From positions 22,975,835 through 23,039,834 of the forward strand of contig NC_049982.1 in NCBI RefSeq assembly GCF_000003815.2: a DNA stretch of 64,000 nucleotides, in the 5' to 3' direction. A program made the position numbers and the translations under genes. The notes under the pieces are model-generated. The model did not search any database. It was not told where the DNA came from and was given only the letters and a program-made list of their open reading frames with translations. Source of the DNA: Branchiostoma floridae (taxonomy: Eukaryota > Chordata > Leptocardii > Amphioxiformes > Branchiostomatidae). Within the stretch, counting starts at the first letter, position 1. The number at the start of each line of letters is the position of its first letter. Of this stretch, positions 6,035-53,589 are shown one piece after another.

Positions 6035-6443
6035 CCTGGCTGTGGATCTCCTGCTGCAGCACAGGGGACAGTAGCCTGGCTGTGGATCTCCTGCTGCAGC
6101 ACAGGGGACAGTAGCCTGGCTGTGGATCTCCTGCTGCAGCACAGAGGACAGTAGCCTGGCTGTGGATCTCCTGCTGCAGCACAGGGGACAGTAGCCTGGC
6201 TGTGGATCTCCTGCTGCAGCACAGGGGACAGTAGCCTGGCTGTGGATCTCCTGCTGCAGCACAGGGGACAGTAGCCTGGCTGTGGATCTCCTGCTGCAGC
6301 ACAGGGGACAGTAGCCTGGCTGTGGATCTCCTGCTGCAGCACAGGGGACAGTAGCCTGGCTGTGGATCTCCTGCTGCAGCACAGGGGACAGTAGCCTGGC
6401 TGTGGATCTCCTGCTGCAGCACAGGGGACAGTAGCCTGGCTGT
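5998..6443 (+). repeat. 40-bp minisatellite spanning the LHPP stop codon, about 11 copies
   Basis: Units beginning TGTGGATCTCCTGCTGCAGC and ending with the stop codon plus CCTGGC repeat exactly every 40 bp from 6001 to 6440. All copies are identical except one G-to-A change in the fourth (near 6145). The first copy is the real 3' end of the LHPP coding sequence; the others lie in the 3' UTR. Minus-strand open frames through the array are artefacts of the repeat. Near-identity implies recent expansion or ongoing homogenisation. Confidence 0.93.
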
Positions 6444-10117: not shown

Positions 10118-11190
10118 AAATTTTGCAGAACCGTTTTCTTACATATTTTTTGACTTTATTAAGATTCTCATCATTTCGGTGCCTTGTACTGTGTATGTCT
10201 GTATAATCAGAATAGAGTGTGTTGGTGAAATATCAGTGCCTTGATGTATTTGTTTAATATTGGTTAACAGTATTTGTTGGATCACTTTGGTCCGGTTGAA
10301 AGGAAGAAAAAGTGAATCCTGGCATTTACAAAGTGTTAACTCTTTTCAGTAAAAGAAAATTATGGATGAGGCATTTCTTATATAGAACAAATCATGCCAA
10401 GAAGTTGACTTCATTGATAGTTGTTTGTAGCTAATTTCTATTTCATGATATGTAACACAATAAATATCACAAACAAAACGAGATATTGCTTTTGGTCTGT
10501 GTGTTTTATTTGTCCTGATGTGTCCGCAGTTACGTATTTCAATATTGAAGAGTGACAGGGCGTGAGGCAGAAAATCGTGTAACTGGGTTGACGTTCGGGT
10601 TGTTAATTTAACAAAGGGATTAGCATGTCCAGAACACAGTATATCAAAACCGGAAGCTCTGCTGCAATTCCAAGGAAAGTTGCTAGACGGTCCATAGTGG
10701 GACTTTTCCCATACTTGCTTTGCTGACACCTACCAACATACCGCATATATAACTATGCACATGTTTAAACAAAATCAATACTGTAGGGCATTTGTGCTAA
10801 TTTTAGAATATCGTATATTCAGAGCAATCGTGATACGTGCAATGTAAGCAAAAATACCTCCGCCCCTAAAGCGTCGCCAATAAAAGTGATGCTCAGTACA
10901 TCTAAGAAAATTCTTGGATAATTCTAGAAGGGTGGCTCACCCCGGAAGCATGAATGACGCTTTATTATGGGGAATGCGCCATATGAATGCTAGTTCTTAA
11001 TAACATTTTTCTCGAACTGAACGCCCACACTGATGATTGACATATCATATTATGACAAACGGGATCTTGTCATTTCATCCAGCACTTGCTGGTGAAAGGA
11101 GGCTGCTTCATCCCTTCTGTTTCTTTCCACCCCAGAATAATCCGTTAACTTTAGAACACTCACCGTTGATTATCAGTAGACCAAAATGAC
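10118..11190 (+). other. Intergenic stretch upstream of the GPCR
   Basis: No gene was seen. About 10610-10720 carries another fragment of the abundant dispersed repeat (TTAGCATGTCCAGA, AAGCTCTGCTGCAATTCCAA, GTTGCTAGACGG). A two-codon upstream frame (ATG ACA TGA, 11186-11194) overlaps the receptor start. Confidence 0.5.
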
Positions 11191-12446
11191 ATGAAGATGG
11201 CAGATGAAGACCAGTTTTCAGATTGGAAACTTTCCCTATCCGAGGGTTCGACGTCTCTGGGTCTTCAGACTTTATATCTCATCCTCAGCCTGGTGGTGGC
11301 TGTGGGGTGTGGCCTGCTGCTTATCTACTTGGTCTGCAAGAAGGACTATCTCCCAAAGCCATGTAACTATCTTCGATGCAGCCTGTCAATGTACGACATC
11401 ATTTTCGTGTGCTGTATGATTCCTACGGAGATCTACATACTTCTCCAGGCAGACGACAGCAACAGCCAGACAGCATGTTGGGTGCAGAAACAACTGTTTC
11501 GATGGATAGGACTAGCTTTGGGTAGCACGTACCTACTGATGGCATACGAACTGTATCAATTCATCTGCCACCCCCTGCACTACCACCAGAGAGTCACCAC
11601 CAAGCGTGTGGGCATCAGCATGCTCGTCGTCCTGGCCTTTTCCTCGCTGTTGCGAGTCGTGTTCATCATCCTCGAAGTACCTTCGAATCCCGACACTCCA
11701 TCGCACTGTGGTTTTCAGGCTGTTGACACCACTGGCCCAGCAGTTGTCATCAAAAACATCATGACAGTGGTGCTTGCCATGGAATTCCTCGCCATCTTCG
11801 TTTTCTACTTCCTCATCTTCAGGGAGGCTAGAAAACAACAGGAGAGGGATGAAAACCGAAACCTGTGGCTCTACCAGACCAGGGCCTTCAAAACCATGGC
11901 ACCTCATGCCATAAGCCTAGCTGTGTGGGTTGGACCACGGTGTTCCTGACAGTAATGAGTCGTCAGAGTGCACTCACAAAACAAGAGGCATCCTTTTCAC
12001 TGGACCTCACCACACGGATAGCTGTATTGCTTCAGATAACACTGCCGCCTCTGGTCAACGCCATAGTCTACAGTTTCCAGAGGCCAGAGTTCCGAAGAGC
12101 CCTGAAGGAGACGTTTGGCTGGTCAAGTAATGCTCCTGTGGCTCTGGCACCACCACGGCATGATCCACCGGGGCAGGACTTGGAGATGGCTGTCTTAAGT
12201 GGGCCTGACCATGGACAAGGGGGATCTACAATACAAGTGGCAGAGGCACCACCGTCTTCAAGGCTGATACAGATGGACGAAGACTCCTCCAGGACAACCC
12301 GTCACACTACAAAAACTGGAAGCAACACAGGTGGAGCTAACCGTGCTTCTAAGACGACGCAGACAGACGGCACCTCTCCTACACCATCTCTCCAGCTATC
12401 AGACGTACAGCCAGGGCATGGACCTCTTCTAAAGAGCAAGGATTGA
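11191..12446 (+). CDS. Intronless odorant-receptor-like class A GPCR, frameshifted in TM6
   Basis: The first frame (11191-11949) gives TM1 to TM6 and the second (in phase from 11925 to 12446) gives the rest of TM6, TM7 and the tail. Odorant-receptor hallmarks: LLMAYELYQFICHPLHY after TM3 (canonical MAYDRYVAIC.PL.Y), RAFKTMAPHA before TM6 and PPLVNAIVYSF in TM7. Cysteines at residue 96 and in SHCGFQ (173) could form the TM3-loop disulfide. Predicted TMs: about 27-48, 64-85, 102-124, 141-162, 187-210, 238-255 and one after LTTRIAV. DRY is replaced by ELY. After FRRALKETFGW there is an unusual polar tail of about 110 residues. The frame changes at GCTGTGTGGG (11920-11929): a duplicated GT, or one missing base, breaks the frame. 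ATG at 11197 has the better start context. Either a recent pseudogene allele or a sequence error; odorant-type GPCRs are known in amphioxus. Confidence 0.83.
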
Positions 12447-21111: not shown

Positions 21112-24100
21112 TTATGCATCCGTGCCTGACAGAGATGTTCCTCGTGACATCTTCTTGGAGCGGACAGACGAAACTGGTCACAGGGGAAGGGGGTTGAAAG
21201 AGAGCAGAACAACTTGATGAGAATCAAATCAATGGCAGCTTCTCAATAATGCATCACAATAACATGATGATACATGATAATGTAAGTAGGAAGACATCAA
21301 CTGTTACATCATGACACAACCTTAGTCTTCTTAACAACAAGGCCTTTTTCAACAGTGGACCATGAAATAAGAAAACATGCAACTACAGTAGTATAATAAC
21401 TACATTTTGTGCATTGTTATAAATTTCAAAGACGTTTTGGTGACTTTTTGTTCTATGGAATTCCACATTGGCATGTCTTTCTTTTCACTATATATATTCA
21501 CATGCCATTCAAATTTTATTTAAAAAAAAAACTACAAACACTAAACCAGTGAATTGAAACAAAACACAATGTATACTAAACCTTAACATGTTATGTTAGG
21601 GAGAGAACACACCAGTGGAATGTAGGTAGTATGTAAAATAGAATTGCAAATCATTGCAGTGACAAAGCACCCAGTATGTTAAAAAAAAGCGGTTGCTACT
21701 TGAATGTTTAACCCCACTGTTGGTACGTTAACATACATGTACTTAAATCTGTTGGTTACAGCAGCTGTTGGGAGGGTGAGGGTTAAAGAACGAGATAGCA
21801 TCCGTCCTCTCTGTTCCATATACCATGCGTACGGCATGCACACATGCCATGCAGCGGTTAGTCAGCAGCCGGCTTGAGTAACTCCCTCATAAAGTACGAG
21901 CGTTTACAGGGAGTCGCGGGAGAAGGAGCTACCGCGGGACATTTTCCGCGACACCACAGATGCGACTGCCAAGGGGAACAACACCAACAGAACATGCGTC
22001 ATGCAACGGAAGACAAAAATTAGGAATAACGTTCTCTTGTGCAGAGCCTTTTTGATACAACATACCTTGGGGAAACTCAATCTACTAAACCAAGCTGAAG
22101 TTTACACTTTTTTTTGGTTGCGTAATCACCTAAATGTTCCTTCATGTTAAGATGATTTTTTATTGTCTGAGAGCTAGTTTGATTGGCTGAGAGCTAGTTT
22201 GATTGTCTGAGAGCTAGTTTGATTGGCTGAGAGCTAGTTTGATTGGCTGACAGCTAGTTTGATTGGCTGACAGCTAGTCTGATTGGCTGACAGCTAGCAA
22301 CAGGCCATGCCTTGCATTTATTATCATTATAACCAAAACCATTCATACCAACTGCAATAGATATTTGGATTAGCTGACAGTTAGTTAGAGGCACACACAA
22401 GAGTGGAAACCTCAGCCCAGTTTAGCAGAGCTTCCCTAAGATATTGTATTGCATAGGATGCTAATGAGGCTCTGCATAGGAGAATGAGCAATAAGAGCAA
22501 CTCAAGTGCCATCTCATTCTACAGCAAGCAAATCAGAGTTGATTTAAGAGCAATGGGGGATACTTAGTGCACAGCAAAACTATGAATAAAAGCTTGAATA
22601 TGACAGCATTAATCAAAGCTCATCATACCAACAATACATTTTTAAATCATCTTAAGACATAGATTAAGTACAAATTAGGTAATAGCATATCAACCAATGG
22701 TAATGACGGGACTGATGATGATGATGATATCAACTAATATGAGGTTGTACATTGTATCATTGTTGCACAATAAAGTTACACACAAAACATTGTTCAGTGC
22801 CTACAGGTTTACACAAGAACAGGTTTTCCCCATTTTTGTTGTTGTTTGCAGAAAACTTACCCAGTCCCAGGCCTTGCAGGAAGAATAGCATACTTTCAGC
22901 TAGCTTCTCTGGCTGGAAAAAAGTAGAGAAAAGGCCATTGCCAAAACCTGTCTCAATGAACCTGTGCTGTTTGAATTAAACCTATACAAAAATGTATATG
23001 TGATCACCTCTACATAAGAACCAGCTGCCCAAGGTGACCATTTTCTGTTTTGCCATTGCCACAAACATTAAGAATCCTCAGTGTCTAAAGTGACTAACTG
23101 TCTCCATAGACCAGATTTTATTGGTCTCCTGAGCAATCTTCTAGAGTAGTATTGACTGTTATAACACTTCAGGAAGTTACTGTCCTTAGTGCTGAAACTG
23201 CTGCTGCTGTGTCTTAGCACTTCCTTTTCCCACATGAATGAAAAGTCATGCAGTATCATGCTGGTCTGCACTGTTGAACCTATTGCTACAGTGTCTCTTC
23301 TTACTGTATCATGCCAACTTTGCTACTAATTCTCGACTGTGGTAAGAAGCTGTCAGAGATGTGACTGTACAGTGAGCATGGGTGCCATCTGGCTTGGGGA
23401 AAGTTTTACGAAACTAACTACAACAGCATAACTTGAAACACCTTCCAAACGTGGCAATACAACTGAGAATTACGTCTGCTGTTTTTGTAGCGGTGTTCAT
23501 TCCGCGTATGCAATTTGCAGGGAACACTTACGTTATCGTCCATGACATCCCCTCCATCCAGCTTTAGGATCTCGCTGTTTTGACGGTCCATTGCAGTGTA
23601 TGTCTTCTCCTGTAATGATAAAGCAGCAACATGCAGCAATCCAGATACTATGTGTATGGTTAAGCACCTTCATACACCCAAATGTTTTGACTATGAATAC
23701 TCAAGTGTACCAATTTCTATTAAGTGGGGTTGCATATGTTAAGAAACTACTGTACACTTGTATAGACACTGAGCATATTCTTGACAATTATGTATCAAAA
23801 GGAAACTTAATAACCTTTGTTTTATTCATTGTTTAAGATTTTAAGATTAGCTAATATAGATTTTAGATCCATGCAGTAAGCGAAGCAATAAGGTTGGTTT
23901 TGTGTCAGACATTTTACTTGATGATCAGTAAGTCTTGACAAGACCTTAAAATGATTAGATCTTGGCTCGCCCCTAGCAGCTTGTTTTGTTACTTTCTCTT
24001 TTTAAAAAGTGCCATGTTCTATTGTGTCCAACACCTTGACATGTGTGACAACAGTACTTAGTAACTTACCACGTCCTTCACATGGGCCGACCTGCTACCA

Positions 24101-27100
24101 GTCACCATCAGCACACGGCACCTACAACAACAGTAAGTTGATTACAGAAACATGTTGCAAGGCTTACTACATGTAACAGAGATATGAGGAAGATACATAG
24201 TAGTTCCTATTGTTTCCTATTGTTGGTAAAAGTAATAAAGCACAACCAAGGAATCAAACTTATTCTAACTCCATCAAATGTTTAAATTCACTCCCGTTTA
24301 CTGCAACACTAAGTGTTAAATTCTGCATTCTGTGACAGTCCTATTCACTTACTTCATTGTCTTCAGCTTGTCCATGAAGTTGGTACGGCTGGAAACAAAG
24401 CATGTAATGTGAGTGAGAAATTTCAATTTGTAACGCTTTGGCTTAATTGAATTTAATCCAATTTAAAAGGTTAGTTCCAAAAGGCCAACATGAACGATAT
24501 AGTCATTTCAACTACATGTTACTATCAAGAAAGCAAGAAGCGAGAAATGTTATGATATTAATAAGATGTTTCTTCATTTGGAGTACATAACTAACCAAGA
24601 CCACATGTTAGTGAGGCTAGATCATTATATTAAGCTCTTCAATATTAAAGATGATAAAACAACAAGCCAAAAGAAATAGACACCAACACAGCACAGCTGA
24701 AAGTAAAACCCACAGCAAGTGAAAAATAGTTCACCGTCTCAAGACAAATCAGATTCTTAGACTACATTTTTCTTCCATCATTCATTCAAAAATTTGGTCT
24801 TCTCTTAAAACATCTTCTTTTATCTTTTCACAACTGTGTTCTGTGTGCTCTTTTGTCACAGAATGGACCCTTTAGCTAGCATTGCAAGTAGTCCTTTCTT
24901 TCCCATTACGAACGGTCAATATGTTCCTAGTTTGTCCCACAAAATAGCATACAGTACACCATTGACTTCAATAGTACAAAAAACGTCATGATTTTAGGAA
25001 AGGCCAACTCTTTGATTGAATGACAGAGTAAACTTCATGGCACTAAAATCAGCATGATCTGTTTGCAACCCTGCAGTATGAAACACAACCACCAGAGGGC
25101 TCTACATGACTACAGCTTCTATGCACAGCTACTCACGCCATGTAAGTCTCTACAAAGCAGGCCAGGTTATGGGGGTTCATGGTCTTGTACAGGTTGTCGT
25201 GGAAGGCATGCACCTCTTTGAGCTTCTGATGTTTAGCCTGTCCGGGAACAACAGCTGTGGTAAAACCTACACTGCTACATGCAAGGGGTTAGTAACTGTT
25301 GTTCTGTCTCTCTCAAAAGGGAGAAACAAAGGACACAACAAATCACCAAAACTGCAAATTTTTGTTAAAAGTACTAGACTAAGTAATATTAGTTTAATTA
25401 GCTCAAAACGAATGAAATCAGGATCTTGGGATGAATTTCTCAACTTAAATGTGCCACAAAAACAGATTGAAACATTTTCACTGGTACTATGCAAAGCCTT
25501 TACATCTGTTCAAAAGCATGGTTTAGAAGTCTTTGTGGTCAGACTTACTTTAAATTCACTTTGTTTCTTTTTTAATCTTACCTTTTCAAACTTAAGTTTT
25601 ATATGCACATTTGTACATCGAATAATAAGTACTGGTATTTAATACAGAATCTTATGACTCTTCCAAATCCTATGGTTCAGCAAAATCATAGCAATTAGAT
25701 TAGCAAAACATTACTAAATAGACAAATTGTAGAAAACAATGGAATTGTTTCGTATATTCATCTCGACCGTATTTTGGAGCAGATTCTGGGTCCTTTGTTC
25801 CTCCCTATGAAAAAGAGTCAACACGGGTGCACAGCTTTGATACACAGACTTGCAGTAGTCTGTACAGTCCGGTCATACCTACCTCATGTAGCGATTGACA
25901 AAACGAGCAAGGTTTTGGTGGTTGAACTTGGAGTAAAGGTGATCACTATACCCTCGCACCTCACTCAGCTTGTCCTTCTTTGCCTACCCAAAGAAAAACC
26001 CACGTATACAGAGAAAGGAAAAGAAAGTAACATACATGTATCAAGAAAGCAAACAAACACAGGAAAAAGGGAAAGAAACACTACATGACTTGTACATTTC
26101 CTAAATTGTAGAAACAAATTGGCTTTATAACTGTTGAAAGTCAAACAATAAAAGATTCTCAATGGTTAAGAAAATAAATCTAATGTTCAACTTATAAACA
26201 ATTACTTATATATGAAAACATCCACAGCTTCAGAATGTCTTAAGGTGCATAAGACGTCTCTTTAGTCATTGTCATTTTAAAAGATTTCCCTGCATCAGAC
26301 AATGACTCCAGCAGGCAATTGGAACAAGTTAAACATATTTCTGACTTTTCTTAAACATCATGGGAAACAACAGATGGTTCACTATCATTGTCTAATGTCC
26401 AAAAACTTGTTACGAATAATAGCAGTATTAATACTGAGAACTGTTTTAAAACACCGATTTAATTTACGACAGCGAATAAAAATTGAAATAAACTAAATCA
26501 GAAGACTGATAATACTACAATCAGGTTGTCCCTAACTATGGGGAGCAACTGAACGGAACTGCACTTTGTTTGAACATGCTCTGAGATAAAACTTTGTTTT
26601 GATATTAGTTCAATGTGTCTCCAATATATATACACTATCTTTCAAGTTCAGCAGTCCACATGCACAACTGTACAGTACTAGTAAGAAACCAGATTCATAA
26701 TGTATAACTATAAGTGAACCCAAAATTGCAGCTGTATGGCAAATGTAAACAGTTATCATAAGCTGCCTATTGGTAGGAGATTTTTGCTAAAAGGTGCAAA
26801 TTTTAGTTTGAATTTATAACCAGAATTTTGTACTGTGGCAGTACCCTCAGTCAAACCTAATTTAAGGCTAGTAGCATCCCTTCTTTACACCAAAATGTGA
26901 TCATACAGTTCACGATGAGGTTAATTCTTGCAACAGCAAGACAAATTTTCAGTCATCATGATGTATTTCTCAAAAGTCAACATTCTCTAAAAACTGTACT
27001 AAATTCCTCTTCTCAGAGCAATGTCTTCAAACATAGTGCAGAATGACTTTTACAGTTATCACTTTTGCTCCAACACTAACACCCCCTGTCAACCACTATA

Positions 27101-30100
27101 GCTAGATGCTATGACTGCTGAGCAACCACAGATTTTGCAAATCTTTAGCAAATATATTTAATGTTTAGTTGTCTTTAACTTTAAATATACTTTTATGTCT
27201 TGTATCTGGTTCAGAAATAGCAATAACTGGTCTTGTCCTTGGTGCTGAAATTGCTATGACATACATACACATTTGCATGTTAATGAAACATGTCATTTGC
27301 ATCTTTGGGAGACTTGAATGACACTCATACATGATATCAAGACTCACACAAATCTAAATTTGGTTGCTCAGCAATCACCACATAGATGAAAGGCCAGGCC
27401 TAAGTGGTGCTACATGCATGCAGGAACTCCCCATCCACATGCTACATGTACATGTAGACCTGTAGGGTTACCTTGGCCAAGTCCTCCAGTTTTGTTAGCG
27501 TGATATAACAAAAGGAAAACTCACAATGGAGACACAAGTACAACACCACAACATGACAGCACAAAGTAGATACCAGGCCGACTTTCTTAAGTAAAGGGGA
27601 AAAGTACTTAAGGCTTGCACACTCTTTTTCAAGAAGATGAAATTCAATTAGATTTTGACTTAAGTTTGTGATGATAACAGCTTATTTTTGGCTGGATTTA
27701 TTCCATATAGCATGCCAATAGCTGCAGTACATGTCAATTATATATAATACAAGTACATGATTGTGTATTTTTGCAATATAAAACCTCAGTCCAGTTTAGC
27801 AGTGCCCCAAAAGTACGTTGTACAAACTTTAAGGTAGCAAATGACTCTTTGCATACTACCTGAGATTGACTGTCAAATTTGGTACATTCTGAAGATATTC
27901 TTGTCAGTGTAGGATACATACTTGTCTTCATAACATTTTTTAAAAGCAGATTGTGATCCATGGAATAGAATTTTTTTTTGCTGTAGCGTACAATGTATTA
28001 AATCAAAATAAACTTCAAATATTCCAATGAGTGCAAATTGTCCATTTTGTCAAACAACCCTTTACTTAGAAAAATCAAGACCCTGTGCAAATTATTTTGA
28101 TAGTGAAACTCACAAGTGATGAAATGAGGATGGAGAGTGAAAGTAGAGCATTAAATATATTCACAGCATCATTAGACAGCAGACAGTTAGTTAGATCTTA
28201 GTGTAGTCTTTCAGATAGTACATGTATATGTCATGATGTAAAAGATTTCTTCTACCTATACTTAAGGTGGGTGCTTGTGAAACACTTCTTTAAGATTGCC
28301 ATTTGGATTGTTAAAAGCAAAGTAACATCATCAGTTAGCTGAACATACATGTATGATACCTGTTACATGACATGAAGTAGGGAATTGCAACATCATTACA
28401 TCTATATATAGTACAAAATGGAAACATTATTAACAAAATCTACATGTATTTCTTTTGAATCAAATGATCAACATTTTGTGCCAAGTGTATGTAATAGAAG
28501 CTTCTTTGACTTGTTGTCAGAGTTGACCACCATGACCAACATAAATGGTTCATTCTATATGACCCAAGTTCATGTAATACATACAACTTACATTTCCATA
28601 GTGGTGCCAGATCAGGTAGCTCTCACTGGTGGGGTTCATCCCCTTCATGTTCAGCTGTAGAGATGCAATCTGCACACAGACAGCAGGATGCAAGTCAAAC
28701 AATTACATGTATGATCCATTTGTAGCATATCAAAGGAAATACATCTTAAAACAGCCATCACAGGGTATCTGTTGAAAGTACAAAGGGATTAATGTAATGT
28801 ACCACATGAAAGTATAATCAATACTGGAGATACAATGCTATGTAATGGAACATCCTAAATGAAAAGTGGCCAGTAAGAATCCTTTCTTTGATATGAACAT
28901 TTGGGGTTTTGCACAAAACTAAGTTTTCTTACCCTTCTTGGCTTGATTTCAGAATCTGGTGTAGTAACTAAAGGAAGGTAGTGTTAACCTTCCTAACTTA
29001 AAACCTCTGTGCATTACCCAAAGTGCTGCAGATTTTGTACACAATGTCAGGTAGTACTACATGTGAATTATTTTTTTGTGAAAACATATTCATAGCAATC
29101 CATAATATGTACAATGTGTATCTGTTGGTATTCCTTTTCTCTCTATTTCAGATTACATTGTATGTCAAATCCAATGGGCACTGACACAACAACTTAATCT
29201 GTGACCACAATAGCTGGTAAGATACTTCAACCAGCTCTTGACAATGTAGGTGAAAATGCAGGAAGTGGTATACTTACTTTTTGACAAATTAAAAGGGTAA
29301 GCATGCAGCAAGACCCATGAAAAATGTTAGTGTTGCTGTATGGAGTCATCATATTTTTCTTTCTCTTTTTGTGACAGAAATTCTCATTTTCATCATTTTC
29401 GTTTGAGCCATTTGACACCGATGTGAGAATACTGAGGCCAGACAAAGTGGACATTGAATGAGATGATTCAGGACTACTTTCAGTTTCTGTCGCTTGGTAA
29501 ATAAAATGGAATTACAACAGCCGTTCTTCCTTTAGATGGCCACCTCCCACCTCCTTCTGGGTAATGTTGACTGGTTTTACCTTTCTCTGTAGCTACAATG
29601 TACAAAATTAATGTAGGTGAGACCAAATTCTTAGCAATGCAGCAGTGACACCTAGCTGCAGTGCAAAGCATTACCATGAGGAAGATGATGATCATCACTG
29701 TTATAAAATGTTTCCTTTTGAAACTCTGGTTGAAAAGAGAATACTTGTTATTCCGAGACAATTTGATGTATAAAAATTTCTAAAAGTGTCAAATCAAAAA
29801 TATCTTTACAAGCGACAAGTTTTATGTACCCCCCAAAAAATACACTTTTGGACAATCTTTTTCAAGACGGGAATTTCAGCTTATGAGGACCACAGAGCTG
29901 ACTTTGTCTGACCATACGGCACAAGAACACCAACGATGACACCATACCACATCACCACCAAGAGCAAGCTGGGTAGGGTTGGGAGAAGGGGGAGCGTCAC
30001 AGACTTGCAACGTGACTGACAAATGGTCACAAAATGAGTTAGAACACCTAACACACAAGTCACAGTACGCTGTACATTTGTCCTCTTGGTCATATCTTTA

Positions 30101-33100
30101 CCGGGTACTTTTATCTCTCACAGCAATGATGAAAATCACACATCTTACCTTCTCCTGTCCCCATTCCAGAAAGCCTGCCGACTCAGCGCTGCACTCCAGC
30201 AGACACAGCCCCAGCACATCGTACGCTGAGACCATCTACGGACGGGAACAGGATCGTTCTGTGTCAGAATTTTTAGTATTGAGATTTACTACATTTGTCG
30301 AAGGATTGACGTAGCAGGTGACAATCACTTTTTTTAAGATGCCCATCCGAAGACCTGACTGTACTGTGTTAACTTTGACCTACTTACACTAGGATGGGAT
30401 AAATGTTTCAATAAGGCCTAAAAAATGTTGTGTTTCCTGTTTCCCTACCTACCCTAGAAAAACTTGTTGACCCTAGACTTTTTTGGGGGGGGGGGGCAGT
30501 GGAGTCACAGCTTCAGCCTGCTTCTTCTTGAAGTAGAAACACTGTTTGTCCTATCTAAATAAATATGTCTATTAACTATTTACTAAAATCAAAGTTTGAC
30601 ATTGAAAGACAAGTGTCCTCATGCATTTCAGTTTTGTTTGTTCAACTGTATTGTAATATGTAATATGTTGGCCAACCTAAAAAATTTACAAGAAAAAAAA
30701 GATAACCCCTACCTACCAACCCTAATTTTTGCAGGACTGAAACAGGAAACGCTAGGCCTAAGTGTCACAGGTGGGTTCTTCACAAGCTTGGGGTGTGGCT
30801 CTCCTCAAACACCTCCAGCAGACTTTGTTTTTGATAACCCAAGTACATGCAGATGCATACTCATTGCCTGGATGAGTGGGTGGTTGTCATCAAGTGGTCA
30901 TCAATTCTGGTAAATTGTGAGACAGTCTGATTCTAAAGGCCTGAACTAACACTTGCATGTCACATTGAACTACTCTGTAGTGTCATTCCTACGCAGTTTG
31001 ACATGATAGAGTGTACGTTAGGAGTCATACTTGAGATGGAGGGATCCGGTATGTAAGCCTGATTCTGCTTAAAGAGCTGAAAGGGATTCAACTAAAAAGC
31101 TTTTTCTGTTTCAGTGGGAATGCTGCAAGGCAGGTTTGGTGCTTCAGGTTCTGAGACTTTGATCTACAGCTAGCCACATGAGCACACTGTAATGCCATGA
31201 AAGGTGGTTGCTATTCAAATGGCGGTCAAACTTAAGGAAAATTTCACGCATCATGTAACAAACTAAATTGATGACATTTTCAAAGTCATCTTGAGATTTT
31301 TTCAATGTATCTTGAGATCTTTTGAAAGCCTCTTTAGATCTTTTGAAAGCATCTTGAGATTTTTTTAAGCATCTCGAGATCTTTTGAAGCATCTTGAGAT
31401 CTTTAGAAGCATCTTGAGTCTTTTCAAATGAATATATCTCTTCAAATCTTTTCAAAGCATCCTTCCTTCCTTCCTTCCTTCAGAACATTGAAAGATTTGG
31501 TTAAATAATCTAAAAATTGGATGAAATTAAGTCTCAAGAAGTGAACCCTGAATCTCAAGATTTTTTTGATTTTGTAAAGACACTGTCTGTGGGTTAAGTC
31601 TAAAACTGCTGCTTTTTCTATTCATATAAAAAAAAAACTCAAATCAGCCTGCTGGCCACTTTTCATTCAGGTCATGACGGATAAAGATTACATGATTTAA
31701 GTGTTGCATTCAAATCAATGAAAATAAAGTCCTTATCTGAAGCAATATCACACAGCTGATGGTTCTATTCTGACTAAACATAACCAGTTAGGAGGATGTA
31801 AGAGTGGATCAATACCCAAGGCATCTCCTACTGCAGGAAGCTGAGGTGTTGAATGGACTCAGCTCTGTCAGGAGTAATTAGATTGCCCTTCAGCACCAAG
31901 GACAGCGCAATCTTCCATTCAACTCCAGCTGTTGATTCGGTTTGGTGAGCTATTGGCGCTGCTGCATTATCATTCTAAAGGTTTCCCACATGGAGAGACC
32001 CCATCCTGATTTCAATGCACCGGGTTTAACAGTCTTTTACAGCTATTTATAGCAGTTTGTGTAGTTACAGTTTTCATTCTGTTCTGGAAATTGCTTGTAC
32101 AAGCTGTTCAAGCCGATGAATACATGTAAAAAATCAGTCTGAGCAGCACTGTAACATAAACTTAAACCCATTTTCTAGGGCCCAAATTAATTCAAAACCA
32201 ATTAGTTTGTTATCTACAGCTCTGTCAACATCACTATAAGCTACAACATGCTAACAAATAGCAGTTTCATAAGTTTATCCAAACTTTAAGGAACAGAGTA
32301 ACATGTAGGTAGTACATGGCTGCATAAACCATGATCAGTAACAATGTCTTCAGTCACCACAAATCTGAAACCATTCTACCAATGTTGTCCTCTCATTACA
32401 GCTTGAAGAGTACTACATACATCAATATTCTGGTCACATCTTCATCTGAAATTTGTATTCCGAATTCACCTCAGACCCTGCCAGACTAATGTGGATCAAA
32501 GGGTCGCCTGTACATCACAGCCATCTCTATTCAAATAGCCCTTAGTAGATGTCAGTGGGTCGACTGCATGCTGTGCCCCTCATTTCATCAAACTGTTAAA
32601 AGCTTTAGCATTTTGGACTCCCTTAGGGTCCTGTATCTACGACTAAGAGACTACACTAAAAGCTTCAATGTCTGACATCAAACCATGTGTTAAACGTTTG
32701 ATACCGAGTTGCATTTATCATCTGAGTTCTGGATGAGGCTGAACATGGACTAAGCACTGTGCTCAAAATCCATTAATTGTGAGCACTTGCGACTTACAAG
32801 AATAAATAAGTTCCAATGTTTCTTCTTGTATAGTCGGTGCATAAAATGAACCTGTAGACTTACCAGATGCAATCCTACTTGAATGACTGAATAATGAATG
32901 TTGTGAATATTAAATGGATGGATGGATGGATGGATAGATTGATGTATGAATGAATGAATGACATTTATTTCCTGCAAGTACCCTGTCCACGACTACTCTT
33001 CCCACAGGTCCAGCTCTACAGACTGTAATCAATAGCCACACCTACACTAGCTGTAAGCCTGTAAAGCCTCTTACCGCATATCTACAGAGGATGTTGGCAC

Positions 33101-36100
33101 CAGCCCCCACACCTAATCCAACCACATCCTTGGACTTACATCTGAAAATTAAAGAAGGGGAAAACATCTGTCAGTTCTTCAGATCTCTCCTTATTCCTTC
33201 CTGCTCAAAGAAAGATTATAGAAAAATTTTGACACACAATTTACATATTTCTTTTGTCTCTGGACTCATATGGTGAGGTAAACTAATAAGAAGTTTAAAG
33301 TACTGTATTTATATACAATTATTCACTTTGATGCTTAAGGTCTGTATGACCTTCCTTAAAACTTACACTGAGAACTGCCAGTTGTTAGAGATCAGTGGAT
33401 TTTAAAAGAGCTCTTACCCAAGAGCTGCCAGGACCTGAGGAATCACTTCTGTGCCCATCTCCTGCATGGTTGGGAACTTGTAGCTGTAAAAAATTATATA
33501 ACAAAATATTAAGAAAACCTTAAACCACAGAATATGCTCTCCAGTCCAACATGTGGTAAACGTTCCTTACACAGTGCAGTTGAACACCTAATTCCCCACC
33601 CAGACATTCAGAACTTTCCAGGATACCATGACATAATACAAGAACAGCACATCCACAAATAGCTCAATGTTAATGCTTGGAAACAGAGGTAGCAAAGATG
33701 ACTTTATGAAAAGAAGATAGCATGAAAAGTAATAGCAACAAGACGTTGCAGATTGCGCAATCCTTTGGAAGCAAGCGGCCTTCCAACCTTTGTTCATCAG
33801 ATTTTTCAGGGGCCGGGGCCGGAGCTGGGGCCGGCGCTGGTTGGTCAGATGTTACGGAAGGCGGCCTGCTCTTCTTAAAAGAAACGGCTCTTCGCAGAGA
33901 TGGAGAAGCTTTAAAGGCTCTCTGCAGAGCAGGAGAGCCAAAACCACTTGCAGTGCTATGTGGAAGTGACAGTGAAACAAGGAGAAGAGGAAAAAGGAAG
34001 GAGGGAACAGAGGAGAGGGAATTCAAGCGAAACGTAAAGTACATTTAAAAGGTTAAAAGGTTTTGGTTAAACTTAAGGTGAAAGAAATCTTGATCCAGTG
34101 TTAGCTCACAGAACAGCTAAATATTCCACTGGTTTTAACAGAAAAGACAGATGATAGTTAGTTTATGGCTTCCTTTTCTGTACTACTATGACTTGCTGCA
34201 GGACAAAGCTGCAGAATGAACATCCTTCAGTCTACAGGAAAGGCTGATCCTGGCAAGGGAAGGACGAGCCTTGAGATAATTCTCTATGTTCATGTCTATC
34301 TTGTCCCCCCAATGACCTGTAAGTCAAGAGACTAGGTAGGTAGGTAGGTATCTATAAAAGACTTGTTTTGTATTAAGTAAATGGCCAGCCGGAAGAAAGT
34401 CCTTGAGTTTTAAGGTGACAACTCATATTTCAATGGGTGGGGGCATCTGAGGATTACTGCCTGGCCCATACAACCCAAATTTGACACAATCTGCTTATCA
34501 TGTTATTACTTAATACTATTTTTACTTTTAAGGGTAGTTTAGTCAAATTTGGTGGATCCTCGTCATATTCAGCTTTTCCACTGTCCCAGTAACCAGAACT
34601 GGGGCTTATATATCACTCAAGGTGACTGGGTTAGAGCAAAGGACAGATGAACTTAACAGGAAGGGACAACAACTGCTAGCAACAGATAACAGCAAGAGGT
34701 TCCATCACAGCTATATCATTGGTAACCTGTTTACTAAGTATGACAGATATGACAACAAATGACATTCTAGATAAAAAATAGTCAAACTAATTTCTAAGAT
34801 GAATAAAACATCATACCTGAGACATAATATATTGTAAAAGAATTGCTGGGGAGCTTGTGTGATAATTATAGAATAATGATAAAAGTTTAATGTCAAATTA
34901 AAGAAAATTGCACAATTATAAAGTACCCAAAAGTGGATAACAAAATCCATAGTATGACACTTGAAAGAAATTAAGTTGCAACATCTTCATACAATTCATA
35001 ATCTCTTGGTGCCTTCTGTATGTATGTCTGCATCTCCATAGATGTACTAATAGTGACAGGATGCTGTCCAGAGCTGGAAATAACACCTCGAGTAAAATTT
35101 GAGTTGTGCACTGAGTGCAAGCATCTAACCTGCTCTCTGGCTCATATACTGAAAGGTAACAACTTATAGTGGTTTTAAGTTCTCTATTGACTGTTACCTG
35201 CTTATACATAAAGATTATTATAGTAAATCGATTCTGAAGTTGAAAAGTTTTTTTACTGTGATCTATACTCCCTAGATTCTGAGAGGTCGTGAGGTAATAC
35301 TATGCAAAAAGAAACAATTTGGGCCCTGTAATGTCATACAACACAGAAGTAGGTGTCTGTCTGACACTTTTCTAGCTAAGCTATGAATGACCAGGTGTGC
35401 TTACTCATTAGGCAGGGTCTCAGCTCCCTCCTCCTGCCCAGGAACAGTGATCTGGACGATACAGAACTTGCTGAGGATGGCCTTCATGTCCTCGTGGAGC
35501 AGGAACTGGTGGAACGACTTGTCTGGGTACAAACAATACAAAAATGTCAGGGGAAGGTAGTCAGTGGTTTTATATAGAGAATGGAACCAATCAGTTACTT
35601 TGTATAAGATTGGGCTAGAAAAGTGTCACAATACTAACAGGACCAGTTGGTATTTAGACCAGATTTTAGTCATCTTAGCCTTTAGTTATGTGGGCGAAGC
35701 CACACATATAGTTTTCTTACAAGTATTTCACCGGAAATCAGAAACAAATGGAAGCCTCCATGTACTCCATGTTTCAAGCTTATTGATTGGCCTAAAGTCG
35801 CACTTTCTCGGTTGTACGTCAGAGGTGAACCTATCAACGCGCAGGACACAATCGGCATCCATTTTGATAATAGCCAATCAAAACTCAGAAAAATGGAAGC
35901 TGTTAGCAAATACTCCACGTTCCCAGCTTTTTGATTGGCCTAAATTCAGACTGTCTCGGGTATACGTCAGAGCTGGACCTATCAACGCAGAGAACACAAA
36001 ATGTCATTCGGCATCCAGTTTTATAATAGCAGCTGAGACGCGGCAGTAAATCGGCCATGCATTCGACCAAACAGGCGCTCAAGGAAGAAGTTGCCCGCCA

Positions 36101-43500: not shown

Positions 43501-46500
43501 GCCTGTCTGTAGGAACATCATGCTCGCTGATAAAACTGGCTTTTATGTTTTATTTCATACAGTATTTCAGTTCAGCCTGACAGCATTTCTGAAAGCTTTG
43601 CTTTTATCATGTTTGAATCAATCTTTGCATGTGAGTTTTATATGGAGCAATATTTCTGAGAACAATACTACATTGTGGTGATGATTCTCAAATATGATAT
43701 AATGTTAGCTACATATAATAGCTGGGTAATAAAAGACACAGTTGCTATGCTCCCTGGCTGCTTGCATGCATTGATCAGGTTGGCTAATCATAATTATCTG
43801 TAATTACACACTTAGAGCCGACAAATTAGAAAGACTGGACAGGACAGATTGCAAATAACGTGAAACAATTCCAGGAGCATTATAACCCACAGTTGGTACA
43901 CTGAAATTTAAAGCTAACTTAAAGGTATTGATCCAGAGAGAGGTAACTTTGATATGCACTCACCTAACGACCATGACCTAGTAATTGATTCATCAATGAA
44001 TGGTAAAGGAAATCTGTTGAATTTAATCAACTATTCAAAGGAAACAATTGAACCACAAAATCTCAATAGTGATGATCCGGGTAGGTACAATCTTGGGGTA
44101 CGGATGGTGACTTACTGAATGTGGTTAATTTTATCAATTAACTGAAAGGTAATTAGGACTTTGACAAACAGACTTAGCCCTCATTCTGACTTGCATAGTA
44201 ATAGTATCTCACCCCTGTATTCAATCTTATCTTGACAACCTTCATACTGTTAACACCATACTATTTTTTCTGAAAAAAAGTTTTGATACTTACGGTTCTG
44301 TCCAATGTCATGCACAGTGAGGAACACCCTCAGCTTGCGGTCTCCCTGAAAAATAAAAACACTTTGAGTCACTACTTCTGTTCTTGATGGTTTTATTCAG
44401 GGCTGGCCAGGAAGAGTCCTGACATCCTGAGTTGTAAGCAATTATTCAGACTTTCTCATTCGAAACTCGTCTTAATTCTCAGTACAAAATGTCTATTTCC
44501 ATGTTAACTTTACACCATCAAATGTTACAAAATGTACATGTTTCATGCTCTACATTATCTATCAAAATAGTGCAACATGATGTCTGGTACAAACTTATCT
44601 GTGTCTCTGCTCTGTGACCACAATAGGTTTATTTTGAAAGGTGCATTAAAATTATATATAAGTAATATAACAAATTGAATTCATCCTCCAGGACCTGTTT
44701 TAATGGGGCACATTTATTTACGTACCATACTTGTCATATTTGTAATCAATGATGAATCAAGAAATATAAAATAAGCAGACAACACAATCATTTTCTTTAC
44801 TTAATAACGAAACAATGAAACACAATCCACTAACTTAACTTTACAATGCAGAGAGGGTATTCTAAGATTTATTGTACAAGAGGGGATTATGTTATACTAT
44901 GGTTACACCCCAGTGGATACATGATGCGATCCTGAGGCATATACCCAGACAAGCAGAACATATACGATGTAGACTCTGCACATCCCTACAGGATTTTAAA
45001 AACAAACAGATTGATACAGATGAGATTAGGTTTTTCATCAGACTCTGATCATGATAACCTTGAAACCTAATTTGGCAAGTAGCCCTAGTGGCAACAAGGT
45101 CTGAATACCAATCATGACATTACATGCAGGTTCAGATACATCATGTAATTGCTGCAGGGGAAGTGCCTTTAAATGTCATGATGGTTTTCATCCTATCTAC
45201 ATGTACATGTACATGTAGGGGTTATGTATCTCACAATGTCATCTGATGTGCACATCTTCAAAACCAATGAATATCCACTGTTTTACGACGGACATTTAAG
45301 GTCATAAAAAGTTTGAGAGTTTGTATTAGAACAATTCTTCTTTGCACTGATGTATCCTTTTTCTAAATACTGCGTACATTGTTTGATTTAGAAAGGCAAC
45401 ATATTTCCAAAAATGCATAATGTTTTCCCTGTAGCCCTTTGCCAAGCTACTTGCACACAATACTAATTGCCATTAAGATTGCCCTATAATATGTGCATTG
45501 CAAGTAAAAAAAAGAAAGAAAGAAAGAAAAACTACATCTACTTGGTTTTTGGACCAAGTCATTCACATAATTATACTATACCATTAGTCTTAGCCAAATG
45601 TTATATGTTTACGTATGATACAAGAAAAAAGACAATATTTGCAAAAATGTCTAACCTAAGCTCAGATTGGCTATAGCCCCTAATTTATCTAGACCAATGC
45701 AAGTTGAAAAAACATCAGTAAGAACAGAAACAGCAGTGTCTTTGCTAAATGCCCTTCTAGCTGCTATACAATGTAGGTTGTTACTGACTCTGCTATAGTC
45801 GTCATCATTGTGTCATTTATTTCATCCTAAACAATAGCCTGTCTCAACTCTACAAGATAATTCCCTGGTTTGTGCAAATTTTGAAATGTGACAGTACTGT
45901 ATTGTGAAATTTAGTTATCACATTTCCTAAGATTTATTTTTCCCCACGGGGTCCTCTTTGAAAAATCCAATTTAATGCACAGAGGGGTTCAAGGACAGGT
46001 AACAGTGTAACCTAAATCTGGGACCCTGTGTCTGCTCTGTGTAGGCTACCTGCACTAATTCTCAGGACTCAGCATGGTAAACACATTAAACAAACATGGC
46101 ATGGCCTCTGGCAGGATTAATGGCCATCCAACCCAAGGTCACACAATGACAGACAAGGCAAAGGGCTTGTCAGGAAAATTACAGATGTTATACATTTATC
46201 AAAGAAGACATGCAATGCTATGTCATGATATGAATGTTATTGTAAAGGGATAATTTTGTTGTCCTTGATAATGATTTCAAAAGTTCATCTGTCAGTGTTC
46301 CTGTGCATTGCCTATGATGAATAAATGATAATGTAACATGAACGGTATAAATTTTGCTGTTTTAATGCAATGAAAAGAGGCACTTAAATTCATTTCACAA
46401 GCCTGCATAGGACACTATCGGATGACCTCTTGTCTGCTCTTAGCAATAATTGATATCAACATCATGATGATAATAACATGGTCAAATATTGATTTATAAT

Positions 46501-52500: not shown

Positions 52501-53589
52501 TTTCACAGATGGACAAAAGACACTTGTAGGGGATCAGATGTCTCATAAGATAAGGTTTGTTGACAACAGTCAACAGATATTGACAAGCGTTAAAGACAGT
52601 TAAGGTAAAGCACTGGTAGCAAGCTCACACACAGCACCACAGACTTATTGCTGACTTTAGGTAAACAAGATCCGTAAATTAAAAACCACAAAGGAATAGA
52701 GTCATATTTAGTTGTTGACATTTTTGTGATGCCAGTTTGAAGTGGCCCCAACTGGTTAGGACTTGTTTATGTCTGTAGAATTATCAAGATAAGATAAAAA
52801 CATTATGGCATGTTTGCTATTGTTTTTTCATCAACGCTTTCCCAACACATATGTTGTTGACTATGTTTACAAAAAGAGAAATAAATGGCATATGGTAAGC
52901 GATTATTACAATGGCATATCTTCTAGGGATAGAACTATGAAAAATGCACAACCATTCTTATCATCAAAGTGCGTTTATAGGCGATATTCGCTGGTGGTAT
53001 ATGGAAAGATCCTGTTACAAAATGTCACCACTCCATGTAACATTTTATCTTCGAGCTTCAAGGGCGTCCAGGTTCATGCACCAAAAACTTTAAGTTCTCT
53101 CTGACCTAGCGCCAAAGCGCAACTATTTCTTGATCCAAACCATTGGCAAGTTTGTATGAGTACACTTCTTAATATGAAGTTCTTCTAGAAATGTCGAGTT
53201 TGGCGACAAATGTGCAGCGACAACAAGATGGGGCCCTCCCCAACACGCCCAACCTCAAGGTGAAACCCTCAGACACAGACACGCGACTGAGTTCCCTTAC
53301 CGAGACATACACCGTCACATCTCCAAACTTGTCCGTCTTCACAACCTCCTTCTGCAAAATAGTAAAGAACAACAAGACAATGTGAGAGAAGAATTCGTAT
53401 CTCATGGTACCATTTTTTATTTTTTTCACGGATGAGCGAGCGCCTGGGTACGGCCCCCATGGCATTGGTAGGAACAACTAGGGCCAGGGATAGGGACGTA
53501 CTTGAACATGAGACGACCGTGACCGAAAAGGGGAGAAAAGCAATGAATTCCACCGACAAAATACTGTCATCTCTTACCGTCTCTTCCAT
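21112..53589 (-). CDS. NDRG: NDRG-family protein (alpha/beta-hydrolase fold), complete gene
   Basis: Fourteen coding exons on the minus strand join in frame: 53578-53589 (ATG, MEET), 53301-53351, 44294-44345, 35405-35522, 33418-33483, 33075-33141, 30149-30235, 28592-28669, 25883-25983 or 25137-25237, 24353-24388, 24070-24121, 23532-23609, 22861-22912 and 21112-21173 (TAA). The sum is 912 nt, 303 residues, with every phase agreeing. Family marks: VHDIGQNHKSF (vertebrate YHDIGLNHKSCF), HEDMKAI, ITVPGQEEGAETLP, VVGLGVGAGANIL in place of a nucleophile elbow, MNPHNL, CRVLMVTGSRSAHV, PEKLAESMLFFLQGLGL and a Ser/Arg-rich C-terminus KKMSRGTSLSG. Family knowledge: NDRG proteins lack the hydrolase triad and are mostly cytoplasmic, linked to stress, trafficking and differentiation. 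It is more diverged than vertebrate NDRG1-4, with a shorter N-terminus, so orthology to one member cannot be assigned. Confidence 0.87.
22162..22298. repeat. 20-bp tandem repeat, about 7 units, each with an inverted CCAAT box
   Basis: The unit GAGCTAGTTTGATTGGCTGA repeats at 20-bp steps (some copies have GATTGTCTGA or CAGCTAG). It lies in the last NDRG intron. GATTGGCT is a reverse CCAAT box, so the array presents several NF-Y-type motifs at two-helical-turn spacing. Confidence 0.85.
23180..23196 (-). promoter_or_regulatory. RE1/NRSE-like motif (weaker)
   Basis: The minus strand reads TTCAGCACTAAGGACAG, differing from the RE1 core at one conserved base plus the variable centre. It lies in the NDRG intron between exons 12 and 13. 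Its flanks (ACTTCAGGAAGTTAC before, GAAACTGCTGC after) recur near 62320-62357 without the motif, so it may sit in a dispersed repeat. Confidence 0.35.
25137..25237 (-). CDS. NDRG: NDRG exon 9b (alternative to 9a)
   Basis: 101 nt, entering in phase 0 after acceptor CCCGGACAG and leaving in phase 2 at donor ATGGC|GTGAGT. It encodes 33 whole codons including KLKEVHAFHDNLY and MNPHNLACFVETYM. Vertebrate NDRG proteins have MNPGNLHLF here, so this copy is the more conserved. It is homologous to exon 9a at 25883-25983 (17 of 33 residues identical). Confidence 0.85.
25883..25983 (-). CDS. NDRG: NDRG exon 9a (alternative to 9b)
   Basis: 101 nt with the same phases as exon 9b, acceptor TTTGGGTAG and donor ATGAG|GTAGGT. 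It encodes KLSEVRGYSDHLY and NHQNLARFVNRYM. It precedes exon 9b in transcription by 645 nt of intron. Since 101 is not a multiple of three, including both or neither would break the frame, so the two should be mutually exclusive. Confidence 0.85.
27233..27249 (-). promoter_or_regulatory. RE1/NRSE-like motif
   Basis: The minus strand reads TTTCAGCACCAAGGACAAG: the left half TTCAGCACC is perfect and the right half GGACA continues AG in place of GCG. It lies in the NDRG intron between exons 8 and 9a. Confidence 0.4.
31289..31440 (-). repeat. About 21-bp degenerate tandem repeat, about 7 units
   Basis: Variants of ATCTTGAGATCTTTTGAAGC follow one another in the NDRG intron between exons 6 and 7. 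The near multiple-of-three period leaves an open minus-strand frame of KKSQDAFKRS-like repeats, but no splice sites or family support coding. Confidence 0.7.
31461..31481 (+). repeat. (CTTC)n simple repeat
   Basis: Tetranucleotide tract of about five copies just after the 21-bp repeat. Confidence 0.9.
31889..31909 (+). promoter_or_regulatory. Near-canonical RE1/NRSE (REST/NRSF) motif
   Basis: The sequence reads TTCAGCACCA, then A, then GGACAGCGC, then A. It matches 19 of 21 positions of the usual vertebrate RE1 consensus; the mismatches are at the variable centre (position 11) and the last base. It lies in the NDRG intron between exons 6 and 7. REST represses neuronal genes in vertebrates; whether this organism has a REST protein cannot be seen here. 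Confidence 0.55.
32914..32961 (+). repeat. (GGAT)n / (TGAA)n simple repeats
   Basis: GGAT tetranucleotides (32914-32936) followed by TGAA tetranucleotides (32946-32961) in an NDRG intron. Confidence 0.85.
33788..33955 (-). CDS. Candidate NDRG cassette exon, Ala-Pro rich (unconfirmed)
   Basis: In the intron between exons 4 and 5, the minus strand has a pyrimidine-rich tract ending TTCCACATAG, then 168 nt open in the phase that continues exon 4, then AG|GTTGGA as a weak donor in the phase exon 5 needs. The 56 residues include LRRAVSFKKSRPPS, which has basophilic kinase-type serines, and five Ala-Pro repeats. GC content is much higher than the surrounding intron. Alternatively it is a terminal exon, since the frame stays open to a TAA at about 33670. 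The non-consensus donor is the main weakness. Confidence 0.4.
34333..34350 (+). repeat. (TAGG)n simple repeat
   Basis: Four to five TAGG units in an NDRG intron. Confidence 0.85.
35748..36038. repeat. Diverged 145-bp tandem duplication with CCAAT and CRE-half motifs
   Basis: Unit 1 (35748-35892) and unit 2 (35893-36038) share ATGGAAGC, TTGATTGGCCTAAA, CTCGG, TACGTCAGAG, ACCTATCAACGC, CGGCATCCA and TTATAATAG-like ends. Each unit has an inverted CCAAT (35786-35790, 35934-35938) and a TACGTCA (35815-35821, 35963-35969). It lies just upstream of NDRG exon 4 in transcription order. It could be an internal promoter or a piece of a mobile element. Confidence 0.6.
36255..36345 (+). ncRNA. tRNA-like pol III element (degenerate tRNA or SINE head)
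   Basis: Box A-like TTGGCCGAATGGCTAAAGC (36261) and a good box B GGTTCGATTCC (36318-36328) in a CCCTGG/CCGGG T-arm. Spacing suits a class II (Leu/Ser) tRNA, but the acceptor and anticodon stems do not pair, so it is not a functional tRNA gene. It lies in NDRG intron 3. Confidence 0.5.
37499..37561 (+). repeat. (GT)n microsatellite
   Basis: About 16 perfect GT dinucleotides followed by interrupted GTGTGG text. Confidence 0.95.
38890..39478 (+). repeat. Second copy of the 7790-8925 dispersed element (single-unit form)
   Basis: It begins TATATACGGGATTGCAAGGC and has the same CTTATGAATATTAACTAGC and CTGATTGGCTGG head. It ends with (GAAA)n, ACATTACGAATACAATATAT and a terminal hairpin (ATTTCACCATAC against GTATGGCTGAAAT). 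It lacks the tandem 163-bp units, so it shows the unexpanded state. Confidence 0.75.
40441..40540 (+). ncRNA. tRNA-like pol III element, low confidence
   Basis: It starts GCTGGCCGAAT like the element at 36255, has CTGTATTTTCGCT in the middle and a box B-like GGATTCGAGCC (40518-40528). No stable cloverleaf was found. It is probably a decayed tRNA-derived SINE. Confidence 0.3.
41640..42080 (-). repeat. Abundant dispersed repeat, uninterrupted copy
   Basis: In inverse orientation this aligns with 9040-9850 and gives the intact junction AAGCTAACCTAAATTTGTCA, which proves the 9238-9633 block is an insertion. It lies in NDRG intron 3. Confidence 0.75.
42273..42649. mobile_element. hAT-like MITE with CAGGG(T/A)TCGAAATAC termini
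   Basis: The left end is CAGGGTTCGAAATAC and the right end is GTATTTCGATCCCTG, flanked by the direct repeat CTAGC (42268-42272, 42650-42654). The interior repeats TTGCATGTAAAATT-like text. hAT elements usually make 8-bp duplications, so the 5-bp repeat leaves the class uncertain. Confidence 0.65.
44346..47652. other. NDRG intron 2, proximal part: no feature recognised
   Basis: AT-rich intron between exons 2 and 3. A CATGTACATGTACATGTA run (about 45199-45216) and hAT-like text at 47268-47350 (GGTCCG, GGAACGGTCC) are the only repeats noticed. No coding signal. Confidence 0.4.
47653..48560 (+). repeat. Degenerate minisatellite, about 16 units with RE1-like cores
   Basis: Units of about 55-65 bp recur with a core TTTCAGTACCAGGGACAAA (variants: TTCAGTACCAAGGACAAAG at 47653, TTCAGTGCCGGGGACAAT at 47711, TTTCAGCACCCAGGACAAAG near 48532) and spacer GATATGGAATGGTTTGAG. 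The units are much more diverged than the LHPP-intron array, yet the core is the best conserved part. It lies in NDRG intron 2. No coding. Confidence 0.8.
49069..49347 (+). mobile_element. Full-length SINE with a tRNA-derived head
   Basis: An 11-bp perfect target-site duplication, ATATGGAATGT, flanks it (49058-49068 and 49348-49358). The head has a tRNA-like box A (GATGGTGCAATAGATGAGTG) and box B (GAGTTCAATCCCC). The body (GTCATACCAAAG, TAAAAATGGTACAT, CCCTGCTGTAGTGG, ATGTGTGGCCCA) is shared with the 5S-headed SINE at 9841-10117. The tail is AACTTTAACTTTA. Perfect duplication indicates a young insertion. It lies in NDRG intron 2. Confidence 0.9.
49359..53300. other. NDRG intron 2, distal part: no feature recognised
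   Basis: AT-rich intron; only short simple repeats (GATT near 49573, CCAT near 50699). No exon with family support was seen. Confidence 0.4.

Follow-up and report, generated by a model that had tools for sequence, protein, structure and literature searches.

Within the 64,000-nt stretch of Branchiostoma floridae DNA analysed here (the window), two neighbouring exons of the same length and phase lie in a gene that resembles the NDRG family. The question raised by this locus is whether the two are used in place of one another, and what such a choice would do to the protein. We propose that these exons, termed 9A and 9B, stem from an old tandem duplication and have been kept as a mutually exclusive pair, a reading to which we give a probability of about 0.85. 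A duplicated exon pair of an NDRG gene, used in mutual exclusion, is the best explanation of the data, the exclusive use itself being what we infer from the sequence.

The NDRG gene

When the exons read on the minus strand of the window were joined and compared with the Pfam Ndr family, a nearly complete NDRG gene was recovered. The joined products of 299 residues covered profile positions 4-282 of 283 (cut-off 23.3) and scored 272.1 bits with 9A and the first of two tails, and 270.5 bits with 9B and the second. The Ndr domain is complete with either copy of exon 9, and the assignment to the NDRG family made in the sequence-only reading therefore holds. Solved relatives of the joined products, as judged by structure matches, are NDRG3, NDRG1 and NDRG2. 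The exon carrying the start codon was not found in the window; those that were found are, in order of transcription:

53301..53351, minus strand, exon 2, the most 5' exon found
44294..44345, minus strand, exon 3
35405..35522, minus strand, exon 4
33418..33483, minus strand, exon 5
33075..33141, minus strand, exon 6, with the elbow sequence GLGVGAG (no Ser)
30149..30235, minus strand, exon 7
28592..28669, minus strand, exon 8, shared, upstream of the pair, IASLQLNMKGMNPTSESYLIWHHYGN
25883..25983, minus strand, exon 9A, first of the pair in transcription order, AKKDKLSEVRGYSDHLYSKFNHQNLARFVNRYM, donor GTAGGT
25137..25237, minus strand, exon 9B, AKHQKLKEVHAFHDNLYKTMNPHNLACFVETYM, donor GTGAGT
24353..24388, minus strand, exon 10, shared, downstream of the pair
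24070..24121, minus strand, exon 11
23532..23609, minus strand, exon 12
22861..22912, minus strand, exon 13
21904..21965, minus strand, first copy of the last exon, coding portion through TAA, (V)ASVVSRKMSRGSSFSRDSL; AATAAA at 21520
21112..21173, minus strand, second copy of the last exon, coding portion through TAA, (V)SSVRSKKMSRGTSLSGTDA; AATAAA at 20944

In a GxSxG elbow the Ser is the catalytic nucleophile, and a Gly in its place leaves none. The elbow in exon 6, GLGVGAG, aligned with GIGVGAG of NDRG3 and has no nucleophile Ser; with Gly instead of Ser at this position, the gene product is predicted to be an NDRG pseudo-hydrolase. Human NDRG1-3 (PDB 6zmm, 2xmq, 6l4h) likewise combine an Ndr alpha/beta-hydrolase-like domain and cap with an elbow that, as aligned, lacks the serine. 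In contrast to the human proteins, this gene has two versions of the exon for alpha9-alpha10 and two of its last exon, and the tail that follows the domain is short, at about 20 residues.

Between exons 4 and 5 there is a possible in-frame cassette exon of 168 nt (33788-33955, minus strand), encoding a basic, Ser/Pro/Ala-rich stretch (TASGFGSPALQRAFKASPSLRRAVSFKKSRPPSVTS...). Its pyrimidine tract is long and its donor, GTTGGA, is weak; it had no Pfam match up to an E value of 1.

Reading frame, age and retention of the 9A/9B pair

The pair described in the sequence-only reading was found as claimed. Each of the two measures 101 nt; they agree in phase, are separated by 645 nt, both carry an AG acceptor and a GT donor, and they share 59 of 101 nucleotides and 17 of 33 residues. 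When 33-residue segments were compared in six frames over the whole window, 9A and 9B were each other's best partners, with 17 identities, and the highest count among the remaining partners shown was 9, in segments with stops inside. No third copy was detected in the window by a six-frame scan or by tblastn, and a tblastn search of the window with both isoforms (E up to 1) showed a duplicate for exon 9 and one for the last exon, but for no other exon.

The junctions to 28592 and 24388 that had been put forward were also correct: with 9A alone or 9B alone the frame is open to the TAA at 21904, and with both exons or with neither it runs into early stops, as had been predicted. These premature stops lie upstream of the last junction by 258 nt (both exons) or 155 nt (neither). 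Under the general rule of nonsense-mediated decay, stops that far before the last junction mark an mRNA for decay. Each productive transcript would carry one exon 9, because inclusion of both or neither would shift the frame and expose the mRNA to this pathway. Another possibility is that the pair serves above all to divert splicing into unproductive products, thereby lowering NDRG output by decay, the choice of isoform being secondary. Stops so far upstream of the last junction would suit such a role; however, a single poison exon would be enough for it, and the coding selection on both copies, set out below, points to two protein versions, so that we hold this to be highly improbable.

Differences between 9A and 9B number 9, 9 and 22 at codon positions 1, 2 and 3 over the 33 codons (chi-square p 0.015), with a pS of 0.77, which is saturated, and a pN of 0.32; purifying selection was judged here solely from the comparison of 9A with 9B. 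Neutral drift was simulated 20,000 times from each copy by changing the sequence at random to the observed nucleotide divergence; the frame stayed open with 17 or more identities in a fraction of 0.0001 of the runs, a result that addresses lasting neutrality and not recent loss. Since neutral drift almost never leaves such protein similarity, both copies appear to have been retained under purifying selection. The flanks of the two exons showed no convincing similarity and hence no trace of a recent duplication; with this and with the saturation of synonymous sites, the duplication is read as old. An assembly artefact, in which two haplotypes or a misjoined repeat were set in tandem, could draw on the gaps (runs of N) in the assembly, but 42 of the 101 nucleotides differ between the copies, the flanks show no convincing similarity, and the search revealed no duplicate of any remaining internal exon; we consider this explanation extremely unlikely.

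Both copies were then compared with the family. With the five following residues, the exon peptides scored 15.2 bits (9A) and 14.0 bits (9B) against Ndr. In the context of the protein's 3' half, 9A scored higher than 9B against NDRG3 (52.2 vs 47.7) and against NDRG2 (2xmq; 35.6 vs 30.5), and 9B higher than 9A against NDRG1 (45.8 vs 41.6). It had been suggested that the copy at 25137 keeps the family motif MNPxNL and that the copy at 25883 has diverged from the family. The first part stands; the second does not, given the near-equal Ndr scores and the state of the motif in the relatives, its proline being present in NDRG1 and 9B and absent from human NDRG3 and 9A. Because NDRG3 also lacks this proline, its loss from 9A is no sign of decay. 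We conclude that, on these comparisons, 9A and 9B fit the NDRG family about equally, with neither standing out as the closer.

That one copy of exon 9 is dead or dying, and is never spliced in, would be in keeping with the acceptor of 9B, where the pyrimidine tract is weak and, by eye, weaker than in most other exons. The AG and GT sites of 9A and 9B are nevertheless intact, both peptides match Ndr to a similar degree, and the drift simulation hardly ever preserved such similarity by chance; a dead copy is very unlikely, and its death would have to be very recent. The mutually exclusive reading of 9A and 9B is preferred because it follows from the logic of the frame, from the equal length and phase of the exons, from selection on both, and from an Ndr domain that is complete with either.

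The arrangement is well known as a kind. Going by the accessible text of two catalogues (PMC5740500, PMC9741552), human tandem-duplicated mutually exclusive exons are adjacent and homologous, of similar length and in the same frame, and, as here, lie within a folded domain and have lengths not divisible by three, the last being the case for 60% of human mutually exclusive exon clusters (PMC5740500). Unlike the catalogued human examples, the present pair is in an NDRG gene and its exclusive use is deduced from reading frames and splice sites; the term NDRG has no occurrence in the main text of either catalogue. In the literature searched, which covered few subscription papers, no NDRG gene was found described as having duplicated or mutually exclusive exons, and the NDRG entries looked at dealt with cassette exons, structure changes, prognosis or expression, none being given as mutually exclusive. 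Within that literature, what is new is the occurrence of the arrangement in the NDRG family; the picture of how exon duplication works is unchanged by it.

The cap segment and the duplicated last exon

By alignment and the numbering of the available text of PMC7022630, exon 9 maps to about residues 197-231 of NDRG3, which correspond to alpha9-alpha10; the cap-like domain of NDRG3 is given there as Ala167-Arg233. The sequence-only reading, which had the isoforms differing in one helical segment of the cap, was thus right about the cap and not about a single helix, as the alignment with NDRG3 takes in both alpha9 and alpha10. The same source reports, in the part consulted, that MHIAQ closes helix alpha9 of NDRG3, that His212 bonds to Asp216, that the tilt of alpha9 differs between NDRG2 and NDRG3 and is tied to these two residues, and that the substrate path is blocked by helices alpha7 and alpha10 (PMC7022630). 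At the positions of His212 and Asp216, according to our own mapping, 9A has His and Lys and 9B has Asn and Thr.

A swap of exon 9 would therefore be expected, from this mapping, to exchange these two helices of the cap-like domain. The fold would be kept while the face turned toward partners would change, and the swap may in this way alter partner binding. Conserved positions did not cluster significantly on one face of a helix (p 0.27 and 0.075). AlphaFold gave a helix-turn-helix for the bare 9B peptide (helices 2-19 and 22-32, mean pLDDT 81.5, pTM 0.38) and a single helix, 5-32, with no turn for the bare 9A peptide (mean pLDDT 83.0, pTM 0.33); as these are single sequences with low pTM, little weight is placed on the models and nothing beyond a helical character is drawn from them. 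If both exons are used, the gene would offer a natural and clean swap of alpha9-alpha10 with all else constant, plus a second swap of the tail, and a comparison of the isoforms would reveal which surface binds which partner.

This second swap is an addition to what had been noticed at the locus. The last exon is also duplicated (21904-21965 and 21112-21173, minus strand), the second copy having come from the isoform search, with an E value of 0.35 when taken alone. Counted through the TAA, each copy measures exactly 62 nt; the two are entered in the same phase, each behind an AG acceptor, and agree at 11 of 20 residues. On both strands of the window no other site equalled this figure, the next best having 9 identities, an internal stop and no preceding AG. 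When drift was simulated 20,000 times from each copy, the frame stayed open with 11 identities in a fraction of 0.00005 of the runs. Because an AATAAA follows each of them (21520 and 20944), the copies look like alternative last exons, and we regard this as probable. Each tail is basic and rich in serine, and the beginning of the NDRG3 tail aligns with the first of them. The disordered C-terminal region of NDRG1 binds lipid vesicles, an interaction that phosphorylation disrupts, according to the accessible portion of PMC12928042. The C-terminal tail would be a second choice, made independently of exon 9 or in coordination with it. With the last exon duplicated besides exon 9, there are therefore potentially four isoforms, and the gene probably makes several versions of its protein.

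The intron before the last exons also holds a 20-bp tandem repeat in 7 copies (22158-22297). It lies between the arms of a predicted pairing of about 22401-22460 with 22041-22110, which at -50.7 kcal/mol was the strongest long-range RNA pairing of the 89 segments folded.

Splice donors and a predicted RNA stem

All 11 of the other internal exons found have a GTAAG donor, as against neither of the two alternative exons (GTAGGT in 9A, GTGAGT in 9B), and such deviant donors fit with regulated exons. Two candidate mechanisms of exclusion were ruled out: steric exclusion by a very short intron by the 645 nt between 9A and 9B, and U2/U12 incompatibility, by inspection, from the GT...AG sites as read. 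The motif TGCATG, which we take to be that of RBFOX, was dropped as a control signal, being too common to carry meaning here (74 sites in the window vs 58.5 expected, a number reached by 4 of 100 shuffles).

Folding of the region suggested two nested stems, with the following arms:

25821..25870, minus strand, suggestive outer-stem arm, predicted just downstream of the 9A donor
25097..25143, minus strand, suggestive outer-stem arm, predicted to cover the 9B 5' splice site
25790..25816, minus strand, suggestive inner-stem arm, predicted
25307..25334, minus strand, suggestive inner-stem arm, predicted upstream of the 9B 3' splice site

With gaps of up to 5 nt allowed within a helix, the predicted outer stem (25821-25870 with 25097-25143) has 39 pairs and the predicted inner stem (25790-25816 with 25307-25334) has 26. 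At -45.0 kcal/mol the outer pairing was the strongest among 78 pairs of donor-proximal segments, and it was matched by none of 3,000 random pairs, by 1 of 12,000 in another set and in none of 20 shuffled searches; the fold of the 9A/9B region as a whole had a z of -2.92, with 0 of 20 shuffles as good. Segments for the inner stem were picked post hoc, after the fold had been seen, and gave -49.3 kcal/mol for one 60x60 pair (strongest of 12,000 random pairs, -45.6) and -45.7 kcal/mol for a larger pair, a value that 16 of 4,000 equally large random pairs attained. Across 89 segments of 997 nt, an equally strong long-range pair occurred in four, none of them at 9A/9B; two long-range helices of at least 20 pairs occurred in four and a helix of at least 39 pairs in three, the 9A/9B place being among them in both cases. 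Two further intron pairings were tested and did not stand out from shuffled sequence (18 of 20 and 20 of 20 shuffles as strong).

In mutually exclusive clusters, internal introns tend to form pairs with the left and the right intron, as described in the accessible part of PMC6071210, and the strong pairing here likewise joins the internal intron with the right intron. Unlike the competing structures of that report, as far as its available text goes, there is one pairing only: with one strong pairing found and two other intron pairs tested, no docking site common to two selectors was identified. We infer that the RNA stem may bury the 9B donor and extrude 9B between the stems, so that 9A would be used by default, and that 9B would be used when the stem is opened. 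The stem accounts for the skipping of 9B only and not for that of 9A. It is a suggestive and testable lead and not a finding, and an RNA switch, taken on its own, strikes us as possible but doubtful. It is unlikely that the fuller scheme applies, in which one animal NDRG gene, with its cap choice set by the RNA stem, would supply four spliced proteins in place of the separate NDRG genes of vertebrates.

Elsewhere in the window, a long uninterrupted frame on the plus strand (11170-11946) resembles a seven-transmembrane receptor; a 111-residue piece of it matched 7tm_1 with an E value of 1.1e-4 and 22.3 bits, which falls short of the curated cut-off (30.5). Two neighbouring minisatellites lie at 4923-5847 (45-bp unit in 20.7 copies, 89% matches) and 5998-6443 (40-bp unit in 11.1 copies, 99% matches).
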